From NCBI RefSeq assembly GCF_036246005.1, contig NZ_CP109171.1, positions 4,018,001 through 4,082,000 of the forward strand: a stretch of 64,000 nucleotides of DNA, written 5' to 3'. This stretch comes from Streptomyces sp. NBC_01723. GTDB lineage: Bacteria > Actinomycetota > Actinomycetes > Streptomycetales > Streptomycetaceae. Positions within the stretch are counted from its first letter, which is position 1. Each line of letters begins with the position of its first letter. Of this stretch, positions 32,503 through 37,258 are shown piece after piece. A program made the translations under genes and the position numbers. Under the pieces are notes generated by a model. That model saw nothing but the letters and a program-made list of their open reading frames with translations, was not told the origin of the DNA and did not search any database.

Positions 32503-33341
32503 TTCGTGTGCCCGGGGGCCGGGTGCGTCGTGCTTGGAGGTCGTACGCCCGTCCCAGCCGCTGTTCGATTACCTGCGGGGTTACGGCCGTCCTCCACAGA
32601 TTGGGCCACTTTCTTCCGTCCACACCTTGGGGACTGGGAAGTTGTCCCGATCCTGTCCACAGGCCGGGCTGTTGAGGGATCATCAGGGCAGGTCAGCTCC
32701 CTGTGGATTCGTGGACGAACGATCTCCACAGGCTGTGGACGACGAAACGTTCCACAAGCTGTGCATCGAGTTGTCCACGGGCAACCCACAGGCTGGAGCC
32801 GGTTGTCCCCAACGATCATGGGCTTCTCCACATGTCTGTCCACTGTTCGGCAACGTGACGCGCCCTGTCACCGCGTCGAGTGAAAGGCGTCACATCAGGG
32901 TGCCGGGTTGGGCTGTGGGAAACGTGGGTAAACCTGGGGACGGCGTTGGGGAGAAGTCGCCTCTCCCTGTGCACGGAGTGTGCAGAACTTTCTGTTCTCC
33001 ACAGATACGCCCGGTTGTCCACGGGCTCCACCCACAGGACCAGTGGACAAAATTCCTGCTCTGACCTGGGGAAACGCGGTTATCCACGGTATCCACAGGC
33101 CCTACTACTACTCCTGACCTTAGAGAGAGCGGAATTCGTTTCGAAGCGGGTCCTGTGCACAACTCGCTCCCGGTAGCCCGACCGTCCCTCGTCACGACTT
33201 GACCCCGAAGGGCACCTACTGTCAGTGGGGTGCGTCAGACTGGTCCCCGGTGTTCTGGTCCCGGGGGGAACGACGACACCGACCCAGACGACGAAGGCCA
33301 GGCAGAGCGAGCAGCGCCGGCAACAGCAGGAGGCGGCAACA
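32503..33341. other. oriC: oriC, chromosomal replication origin
   Basis: The gap between dnaA and dnaN has no gene and many DnaA boxes. Plus-strand boxes: 32590, 32616, 32653, 32722, 32748, 32771, 32824, 32995, 33015, 33080 and 33089 (starts). Minus-strand boxes: 32702, 32734 and 33042. Weaker matches lie at 32803, 32836 and 32914. The most frequent forms are TTGTCCACG and TTCTCCACA, in line with the Streptomyces consensus TTGTCCACA. Spacing is irregular with a sparser middle (32845-32994), as in other Streptomyces origins. The last two boxes abut a GGCCC and CTACTACTACT stretch. Confidence 0.96.
33080..33112 (+). promoter_or_regulatory. Putative basal unwinding element: tandem DnaA boxes plus DnaA-trio
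   Basis: TTATCCACG (33080-33088) and GTATCCACA (33089-33097) are directly adjacent, followed by GGCCC and CTACTACTACT (33102-33112). On the opposite strand the last part reads 3'-GAT repeats. This is the same order as the B. subtilis unwinding element: two boxes, GC spacer, DnaA-trio. The assignment rests on pattern similarity. Confidence 0.7.
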
Positions 33342-34472
33342 GTGAAGATCCGGGTGGAACGCGACGTACTCGCGGAGGCCGTGGCCTGGGCGGCGCGCAG
33401 CCTCCCGGCCCGTCCGCCGGCGCCGGTCCTCGCCGGCCTGCTGCTGAAGGCCGGCGAGGGGCAGCTGAGCCTGTCCAGCTTCGACTACGAGGTCTCCGCG
33501 CGGGTGTCGGTCGAGGCCGAGGTCGAGGAGGAGGGCACGGTGCTCGTCTCCGGTCGCCTGCTCGCCGACATCTCCCGCGCCCTTCCCAACCGGCCGGTGG
33601 AGATTTCCACAGACGGTGTACGGGCGACGGTGGTCTGCGGCTCCTCGCGCTTCACCCTCCACACCCTGCCGGTGGAGGAGTACCCGGCGCTGCCGCAGAT
33701 GCCGGAGGCGACGGGCACGGTCCCCGGCGAGGTCTTCGCCGCGGCCGTGCAGCAGGTCGCGATCGCCGCGGGCCGCGACGACACGCTGCCCGTGCTCACC
33801 GGTGTGCGCATCGAGATCGAGGGCGACTCGGTGACGCTGGCCTCGACCGACCGCTACCGCTTCGCGGTCCGCGAGTTCCTGTGGAAGCCGGAGAACCCGG
33901 AGGTCTCCGCGGTCGCCCTGGTGCCCGCCAAGACGCTCCAGGACACCGCCAAGGCGCTGACCAGCGGTGACCAGGTGATCCTGGCGCTGTCCGGCTCGGG
34001 CGCGGGCGAGGGCCTGATCGGTTTCGAGGGCGCCGGCCGCCGGACGACGACGCGTCTCCTGGAGGGCGACCTCCCGAAGTACAAGACGCTGTTCCCGACG
34101 GAGTTCAACAGCGTCGCCGTGATCGAGACCGCCCCCTTCGTGGAGGCCGTCAAGCGCGTGGCCCTGGTCGCCGAGCGCAACACCCCGGTGCGGCTCAGCT
34201 TCGAGCAGGGCGTGCTCATCCTTGAGGCCGGGTCCAGTGACGACGCACAGGCTGTGGAAAGGGTCGACGCCCAGCTGGACGGCGACGACATCTCGATCGC
34301 CTTCAACCCGACCTTCCTGCTGGACGGCCTGAGCGCCATCGACTCGCCGGTCGCCCAGCTGTCCTTCACGACGTCCACGAAACCGGCGCTGCTCAGCGGC
34401 AAGCCCGCGCTGGACGCCGAGGCGGACGAGGCCTACAAGTACCTGATCATGCCGGTGCGGCTGAGCGGCTGA
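33342..34472 (+). CDS. dnaN: DNA polymerase III sliding clamp (beta subunit)
   Basis: 376 aa, the actinobacterial length. Three clamp domains are visible: MKIRVERDVLAEAVAWAAR at the start, the middle domain starting near FAAAVQQVAIAAGRDDTLPVL, and the C-terminal domain ending YKYLIMPVRL, which forms part of the clamp-loader/polymerase pocket. The GTG at 33342 follows AGGAGG by about 10 bases. It encloses DNA and holds polymerase on the template. A DnaA box lies 21 bases past the stop. Confidence 0.97.
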   Translation: MKIRVERDVLAEAVAWAARSLPARPPAPVLAGLLLKAGEGQLSLSSFDYEVSARVSVEAEVEEEGTVLVSGRLLADISRALPNRPVEISTDGVRATVVCGSSRFTLHTLPVEEYPALPQMPEATGTVPGEVFAAAVQQVAIAAGRDDTLPVLTGVRIEIEGDSVTLASTDRYRFAVREFLWKPENPEVSAVALVPAKTLQDTAKALTSGDQVILALSGSGAGEGLIGFEGAGRRTTTRLLEGDLPKYKTLFPTEFNSVAVIETAPFVEAVKRVALVAERNTPVRLSFEQGVLILEAGSSDDAQAVERVDAQLDGDDISIAFNPTFLLDGLSAIDSPVAQLSFTTSTKPALLSGKPALDAEADEAYKYLIMPVRLSG

Positions 34473-35576: not shown

Positions 35577-36698
35577 ATGCACGTCACGCATTTGTCGCTG
35601 GCCGACTTCCGTTCGTACGCCCGGGTCGAGGTGCCCCTGGACCCGGGCGTCACCGCCTTCGTCGGCCCGAACGGGCAGGGCAAGACGAACCTGGTCGAGG
35701 CGGTCGGCTACCTCGCCACCCTCGGCAGCCACCGGGTCTCCTCCGACGCGCCCCTGGTGCGCATGGGTGCCGAGCGCGCCGTGATCCGCGCCCAGGTCAG
35801 ACAGGGCGACCGGCAGCAGCTGATCGAGCTGGAGCTGAACCCGGGCAAGGCCAACCGGGCCCGCATCAACAGGTCCTCGCAGGTCAGGCCCCGTGATGTA
35901 CTCGGCATCGTGCGCACCGTCCTGTTCGCGCCCGAGGACCTGGCGCTGGTGAAGGGCGACCCCGGGGAGCGGCGCCGCTTCCTGGACGAGCTGATCACCG
36001 CCCGCTCCCCGCGCATGGCGGGGGTGCGCTCCGACTACGACCGCGTCCTCAAGCAGCGGAACACCCTGCTGAAGTCGGCCGCGCTCGCCCGCCGGCACGG
36101 CGGCCGCACGATGGACCTGTCCACGCTCGACGTCTGGGACCAGCACCTCGCGCGCGCGGGCGCCGAGCTGCTCGCCCAGCGCCTCGACCTGATCGCCGCC
36201 GTGCAGCCGCTGGCCGACAAGGCGTACGAGCAGCTGGCCCCGGGCGGCGGCCCCGTCGCCCTGGAGTACAAGCCGTCGGCGCCGGGGGAGGCGCACACGC
36301 GTGAGGACCTGTACGAGCAGCTGATGGCCGCGCTCGCCGAGGCGCGCAAGCAGGAGATCGAGCGGGGCGTCACCCTGGTGGGGCCGCACCGGGACGATCT
36401 GCTGCTCAAACTCGGTTCACTGCCCGCCAAGGGGTACGCCTCCCACGGCGAGTCCTGGTCGTACGCGCTGGCGCTGCGGCTGGCCTCGTTCGACCTGCTG
36501 CGGGCCGAGGGCAACGAGCCCGTCCTGGTCCTGGACGACGTCTTCGCCGAGTTGGACGCGCGGCGCCGGGAGCGGCTGGCCGAGTTGGTGGCGCCCGGCG
36601 AGCAGGTGCTGGTGACGGCCGCGGTCGACGACGACGTGCCGCAGGTGCTGGCGGGGACGCGGTTCACGGTCGCGGAGGGCACGGTGGAGCGCGTATGA
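35577..36698 (+). CDS. recF: DNA repair and recombination protein RecF
   Basis: 373 aa. An SMC-like ABC ATPase with Walker [10 protein letters not shown] at residues 30-38, the signature region [12 protein letters not shown] near 265 and Walker [17 protein letters not shown] near 315-330. It loads RecA at ssDNA gaps with RecO and RecR. The ATG at 35577 is preceded by GGGGAGG about 12 bases upstream. The dciA gene overlaps its stop by ATGA, so they are coupled. Confidence 0.96.
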
Positions 36699-37258
36699 GC
36701 ACCGGCGAACCGGTCCCGGAGGAGCAGCCCGGACCTCGGGGAGGGAAGCCCGAACCGTCCGGCGTCGACCTCGCGCGCGTGGCGCTCAGGGCGGCGCGGG
36801 AGGCGGCACGCGCGCGTGGGGACGCGGCGCAGCAGAAGAAGCAGGCGCGGCGCGGCGGTCTGCGGTCCGGGGCGCGGGCCGACGGGCGGGACCCGATGGC
36901 GCTGGGGTCGGCGATCAACCGGCTGATCACCGAGCGCGGCTGGGAGACGCCGGCCGCGGTGGGCGGCGTGATGGGCCGCTGGCCGCAGATCGTCGGCGAG
37001 GACGTGGCCAAGCACTGTGTGCCGGAGCGGTACGACGAGGACGAGCGGGTGCTGGTGGTGCGCTGCGACTCGACGGCCTGGGCGACGAACCTGCGGCTGC
37101 TGGCGCCGACCCTGGTGGCCCGGCTCAACGAGGACCTGGGGCACGGCTCGGTCCGGATGATCAAGGTGCTGGGGCCCGGCGGTTCGGGGGGCCCCGGGCG
37201 CCGTTACGGCCCGTTGCGCGCGCCCGGCAGCCAGGGTCCGGGTGACACCTACGGGTGA
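36695..37258 (+). CDS. dciA: DciA-like (DUF721) replicative helicase accessory protein
   Basis: 187 aa. The DUF721 domain is the C-terminal half: [16 protein letters not shown], then [19 protein letters not shown] and [17 protein letters not shown]. The first 65 residues are a basic, disordered region. DciA proteins help load or operate the DnaB helicase in bacteria without DnaC; the mycobacterial homologue in the same position (Rv0004) is essential for replication. It overlaps recF by 4 bases. The 455-base gap before gyrB suggests that gyrB has its own promoter. Confidence 0.88.

Follow-up and report, generated by a model that had tools for sequence, protein, structure and literature searches.

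Between dnaA and dnaN, the genome of Streptomyces sp. NBC_01723 carries an element that is, by every sequence feature tested, a basal unwinding system (BUS) of the kind known from B. subtilis, in which DnaA boxes are followed by DnaA-trios. From sequence comparison, we consider it highly likely that this element (positions 33080-33116 of the window, the 64-kb stretch of DNA that we analysed) acts as the BUS of the origin and includes the local form of a phylum-wide tract of about five trios with central A or C. The B. subtilis-type reading, which had been put forward in a preliminary description of this DNA, is supported by the order and spacing of the parts, by their conservation, by the residues of DnaA and by the predicted stability of the duplex. 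Further, the counterparts of the tract in other actinobacteria suggest that the key base of a trio would be A or C and not A alone. Since the trios of the window all have a central A, the window is an ordinary member that leaves the A-or-C rule untouched; the variant is a finding on its relatives.

The genome comprises 8.85 Mb in two contigs, with the window near the middle of the 8.76 Mb contig. Its dnaA-dnaN gap of 890 bp holds 18 DnaA-box-like sites (two or fewer mismatches), compared with 68 such sites, or 1.08 per kb, in the rest of the window; 19 DnaA boxes have been reported for the S. coelicolor origin (PMC4285127). The element lies toward the dnaN end of the gap, about 240 bp upstream of dnaN, and a minus-strand box-like site at 33154 is found beyond the trios on the dnaN side. 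The third base is A in both boxes beside the trios (33080-33097), as it is in TTATCCACA, but differs in most of the remaining box-like sites of the gap. In this the pair also differs from TTGTCCACA, the high-affinity box reported for S. coelicolor (PMC4285127). The DciA-family gene that directly follows recF is likely a helicase loader (Table 1). Elsewhere in the genome we observed a second DnaN-like stretch (L178, G000:C1:1086067-1086774) that scored 85.7 bits, below the family cut-off, and second DnaN-like matches are present in several relatives too.

Table 1. Features of the dnaA-dnaN region, in window coordinates.
Feature	Position	Strand	Remark
dnaA	30481..32451	+	TIGR00362, 512.7 bits; initiator that would read the element
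First DnaA box, TTATCCACG	33080..33088	+	1 mismatch vs TTATCCACA
Second, abutting DnaA box, GTATCCACA	33089..33097	+	1 mismatch vs TTATCCACA
4-bp GC spacer, GGCC	33098..33101	.	
Five DnaA-trios, 3'-GAT GAT GAT GAG GAC-5'	33102..33116	-	plus strand CTA CTA CTA CTC CTG
Predicted least stable duplex of the dnaA-dnaN gap	33100..33141	.	putative melting start
dnaN	33342..34472	+	TIGR00663, 299.5 bits; other flank of the origin
recF	35577..36698		
DciA-family gene	36695..37258		PF05258, 87.1 bits; directly after recF

The abutting DnaA box pair named in the preliminary description was confirmed, with TTATCCACG and GTATCCACA in the same orientation from 33080 and 33089, and the order and spacing match those of B. 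subtilis (compare CTACTATTACTTCTACTA, printed for the strand facing the B. subtilis trios, PMC10201434). Where GGCCC and then CTACTACTACT had been read, the layout stands; one C had been counted twice, however, and the spacer is GGCC. Nor does the element end at 33112 as first described, as the run of trios extends to 33116. The trios begin 13 bp from the first box and 4 bp from the second, across a GC spacer of the expected length of about 4 bp, and form five consecutive 3'-NAN-5' units, all with central A, of which the first three are GAT while trios 4 and 5 are without the third-base T. Shared with the B. subtilis BUS (boxes 6/7 and trios) are the same-orientation tandem boxes, the 4-bp GC spacer, the plus-strand CTA CTA at which the trios start, the placement between dnaA and dnaN, and the base-capture residues of DnaA, identical except for N196. 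The window differs in having five trios rather than the six of the B. subtilis structure, in downstream DNA that still has 52% GC in its lowest 50-bp bin (lowest bins 0.52-0.54), and in the DciA gene near its origin.

BUS modules have been predicted in 1755 of 2070 bacterial origins, Streptomyces perhaps among them, and that survey gives box-trio distances of up to 16 bp, peaking at 10-13 bp, with 3'-GAT-5' as the commonest trio beside the box (PMC8287927); the window element fits the published rule at the commonest distance, 13 bp. DoriC and Ori-Finder annotate trios (PMC6323995; PMC10225481), so the Streptomyces element may be listed there already. DnaA-trio motifs have also been reported in the Kocuria oriC (PMC12500396), so trios in actinobacteria are as such not new. 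In titles and abstracts we found no description of trios in Streptomyces or of natural central-C trios, which does not prove that there is none.

Several controls bear on how readily such an arrangement arises by chance. Within the 64 kb, CTACTACTA occurs a single time on both strands, and the box pair with GGCC, at up to three mismatches, has one match in the 8.85 Mb genome. In dinucleotide shuffles of the 890-bp gap, a box followed after 3-5 bp by CTA[CT]TACTA was found in 0 of 3000, and CTA[CT]TACTA anywhere in 1 of 3000. The published BUS rule (a box with at most two mismatches, a gap of at most 16 and at least three NAN; PMC8287927) has six placements in the gap, five of which are registers of the element; the sixth is weak and falls on the minus strand at 32702. 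This rule is permissive, and weak evidence by itself, as 271 of 3000 dinucleotide shuffles satisfy it.

The element is conserved throughout the genus. An exact pattern of box, NNNC and CTACTACTA matched 289 of 295 genus genomes, once in each matching genome of the table, and its reversed control matched none. A looser pattern (box pair, GGCC and 28 unspecified bases, with up to three mismatches) also matched 289 of 295; the six genomes missed by the exact pattern (G044, G089, G198, G202, G233 and G272) were all matched by the looser one, and the six missed by the looser pattern (G088, G096, G110, G138, G276 and G284) by the exact one. G089, the only one of the six exact-pattern misses among the looser-pattern matches listed, carries CTACTACTA. 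We then aligned 48 Streptomycetaceae, that is, the window and 47 loci drawn from 50 of the 61 genomes of a DnaN search, three being duplicate sequences. The 22-mer at 33083-33104 has the highest information content in the dnaA-dnaN gap (1.76 bits against a mean of 0.93). All columns of the first box are invariant except 33082 and 33088, as are positions 33092-33097 of the second box, and the spacer has constant length and a final C in 48/48, its first three bases being variable. Positions 33102-33110 are likewise invariant in 48/48 except 33105, where the change between C and T turns CTA into TTA and preserves the central A of the trio.

Two other conserved stretches were observed in the gap. 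A less strict one at 33120-33131, about 20 bp past the trio start and within the least stable stretch, reads TTAGAGAGAGCG in the window and TAGAGAGAGC, TAGTTAGC or ATATCTACC in other genus genomes. The second-ranked conserved 22-mer in Streptomycetaceae (33221-33242, 1.61 bits) lies outside the DnaA-box cluster and is possibly part of the dnaN promoter.

We searched for the trio tract in other actinobacteria with DnaN proteins in 79 class and 60 phylum genomes. This discovery sample covers 68 of 74 other-genus class genomes and 25 of 55 other-class genomes; of all 176 loci collected up to this stage, 165 have a dnaA-dnaN gap, 161 of these gaps being unique, and among the unique ones 83 are class or phylum loci outside Streptomycetaceae. 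The anchor was the second box, a 4-bp gap and the first CTA, so that the first trio is selected, here as in the replicate below, and trios 2-5 are free. It was found in 43 of the 83 loci, 39 of which passed the two-box score, giving 35 distinct tracts. Of the 140 trios at places 2-5, 110 have T or G as the plus-strand central base (T 50, G 60), 102 have A as the third base and 84 have both; shuffling within tracts gave 56.0, 40.7 and 16.9 on average, and none of 5000 shuffles reached the observed counts. When the register is shifted by one or two bases, central T or G is left in just 29 and 25 of 140, and the trio pattern ends after trio 5.

A replicate sample used a tandem-box pattern with at most one mismatch, which matched 146 of 296 class genomes. 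As the reversed control of this pattern also matches many genomes, the matches needed checking. From the matches listed we took 97 that lie outside the genus and are absent from the discovery sample, leaving out seven identical repeats in G525; 78 of the 97 adjoin dnaN and 19 do not, and the 78 gave 62 distinct tracts, 60 of them new. Here central T or G was found in 211 of 240 trios (T 101, G 110), third-base A in 182 and both in 165, against shuffle means of 102.3, 68.9 and 31.0 (0/5000 reaching the observed), and the out-of-register counts of central T or G were 42 and 44 of 240. On the trio strand, 50 of the 60 tracts have a central C among trios 2-5; in 21 of the 60 each of the first three trios is centred on A, and in 46 each is centred on A or C.

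When the two samples were pooled (117 loci), central C was found in 24 of 28 families and was at least as frequent as A in 15. Family means for the trio-strand central base are A 0.35, C 0.44, G 0.19 and T 0.02, with third-base T at 0.77. Because the shuffles ignore kinship among genomes, we also counted one locus per family, which gave 85, 85 and 66 of 112 (central, third, both) against shuffle maxima of 59, 47 and 26. A profile trained on the replicate placed the plus-strand element beyond all 100 shuffles in 40 of 43 anchored and 33 of 40 unanchored loci, though it includes the trios and so provides no independent evidence for their letters; in 10 of the 83 class and phylum gaps (7 unanchored, 3 anchored) a profile match was absent or weak. 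The first trio is CGA in several unanchored loci, and in L069 all five units are CGA, so that its tract has no central A at all. Intergenic GC showed an unconvincing correlation with central C (Spearman 0.31, p = 0.07). In a separate scan of named genomes across the phyla, an exact TTATCCACA-NNNC followed by three CTA or TTA was found at at least 118 loci, and 96 of the 118 matches listed lie within 2.5 kb of a dnaA or dnaN sequence. The fourth, unselected trio of these 96 has central A in 80, C in 12, T in 4 and G in 0, counts in which C is understated since the scan selected A-type first trios. Among the named actinobacteria, Nocardiopsis alba DSM 43377 (L221) and Bifidobacterium bombi DSM 19703 (L182) have a central C in trio 4 or 5.

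Against the A-or-C rule, central G is frequent in some families: its share of positions is 0.23 in f18, with 22 loci, and in f19, with 16, and it rises to 0.42 and 0.58 in f28 and f13, with three loci each. An exception to the rule was observed in f18, where trios 3 and 4 of seven related loci (L303, L306-L309, L311 and L312) are CCA, with central G.

The substitutions at the central position also depart from those of the surrounding DNA. On the plus strand, T-C is a transition and T-G a transversion. On a tree of 159 genomes (the 117 and 42 Streptomycetaceae) we counted about 62 T-G and 35 T-C changes at the central trio position, compared with 112 and 189 at 18 downstream positions (p = 6e-6) and 151 and 204 at 30 upstream positions (p = 2e-4), all of which are estimates because the tree was built by parsimony methods from short segments of protein. 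Transitions are the most frequent change at the first and third positions of the trios.

We compared the DnaA of the window with that of B. subtilis (8btg) at nine residues whose roles, including the gripping of captured bases, have been reported (PMC10721633). Eight of the nine ssDNA-binding ISM residues are identical (E183, N187, I190, I193, R202, K222, E223 and E228), and the ninth, N196, reported to touch the third trio base (PMC10721633), is G in the window; this and the missing third-base T of trios 4 and 5 count against the BUS reading. Among the readable DnaAs, all 68 of the replicate and 64 of 70 in the discovery sample have Asn187, reported to contact the amine of the central base (PMC10721633), and residues 196 and 202 are variable among relatives. 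In B. subtilis experiments in vitro, with an abasic site opposite, the central A of trio 1 could be exchanged for C and not for G, T or U, and in the cell central C is better than G or T for growth and initiation, which is explained by DnaA reading the amine (PMC10721633). Deviant trios without central adenine had been suspected (PMC8287927) and recognition of a range of sequences had been raised (PMC10721633), while a 2026 review still states the motif as NAN (PMC13220808). The rule of PMC8287927 likewise demands a central A, and other actinobacteria often fail it yet keep A or C. In GC-rich origins, trios with a central C seem to be a naturally occurring variant of the code. We propose that Asn187 (B. 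subtilis numbering) reads the amine common to A and C, which would explain why either can be the central base, and we think it likely that the trio code is N-(A or C)-N, read through that amine. Natural 3'-GCT-5' trios, in some genomes throughout the five units, would then let GC-rich origins retain a melting tract readable by DnaA, and NAN searches would miss such tracts.

It could instead be the plus strand, with CTACTACTA, that is conserved, as a site for a helicase loader or other factor comparable to the DnaD recognition element opposite the B. subtilis trios. TnnT pairs bind DnaD on this strand in B. subtilis (PMC10201434), the window has TACT three times, and the DciA helicase-loader family gene is in the window; however, 42 of the 117 other actinobacterial loci have a 15-nt tract that contains no TnnT, whatever the register, and both the three-base register and the choice of A or C on the trio strand persist in relatives, so we regard this explanation as improbable.

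The preliminary description held that Streptomyces origins are without an obvious AT-rich unwinding region, a view that our stability calculations correct. By nearest-neighbour stability, computed from stacking energies, the predicted minimum of the gap lies at 33100-33129 for a length of 30 bp, at 33102-33141 for 40 bp, at 33080-33129 for 50 bp and at 33078-33137 for 60 bp, each time at the element, and this minimum at the trios indicates that the origin does have a weak point, if a small one. Melting might begin elsewhere, the element being a real DnaA site all the same, for example at 32979-33008, a stretch that ranks second among the weakest 30-bp segments and shares bases with a DnaA-box-like site. 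We find this quite improbable, given that the minimum lies at the trios for each of the four lengths and that the coincidence recurs in relatives: 42 of 47 Streptomycetaceae (rough chance 0.065) and 103 of 117 other actinobacterial loci (chance about 0.094) have the midpoint of their least stable 40 bp between -10 and +50 relative to the trio start. In the 117 loci, the GC content of 20-bp bins that begin between 0 and +30 relative to the first trio is 0.40-0.47, compared with an intergenic mean of 0.62.

The E. coli DUE likewise is a DnaA-dependent weak duplex beside an array of DnaA boxes. AGATCT, the sequence of the E. coli ATP-DnaA boxes, was not seen in 33098-33160 when read by eye. Of the 117 loci, 10 have it between 15 and 50 bp past the beginning of the trios, eight of them in f18 (for example L314, L316 and L305), and it was rejected as a general downstream element on this distribution.

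That the block owes its conservation to a role in a dnaN promoter or in a short leader ORF, its trio likeness being incidental, is highly improbable: it does lie some 240 bp upstream of dnaN and its repeats in the TAC/GAC frame are common GC-rich codons, but it keeps a fixed 4-bp distance from the boxes, the sole sigma-70-like match of the region is at 32842-32815 on the minus strand and not at the element (in a scan for a consensus from which Streptomyces promoters may differ), and a leader is rejected by distances to dnaN of 58-707 bp in all three phases (65, 48 and 46 of 159) and by a stop within 60 nt in the TAC/GAC frame in 91 of 159.

We return to the BUS. Two DnaA molecules on the tandem boxes would bring their AAA+ domains to the GC spacer, from which DnaA-ATP would extend along the minus strand at three bases per protomer, each protomer capturing the first two bases of a trio. 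In this way the weakest duplex of the region could be opened and held for helicase loading, and across the phylum the tract of about five trios is retained, with central A or C. Strand opening would most likely begin at the element at 33080-33116.

The likely opening site of the Streptomyces origin is thereby narrowed to a single element of 37 bp, which lends itself to tests with oligonucleotides. The many lineages that keep A or C at the centre of the trio provide natural evidence for a base-capture rule that has hitherto come from B. subtilis experiments, and we predict that some GC-rich origins scored as being without trios do carry them.
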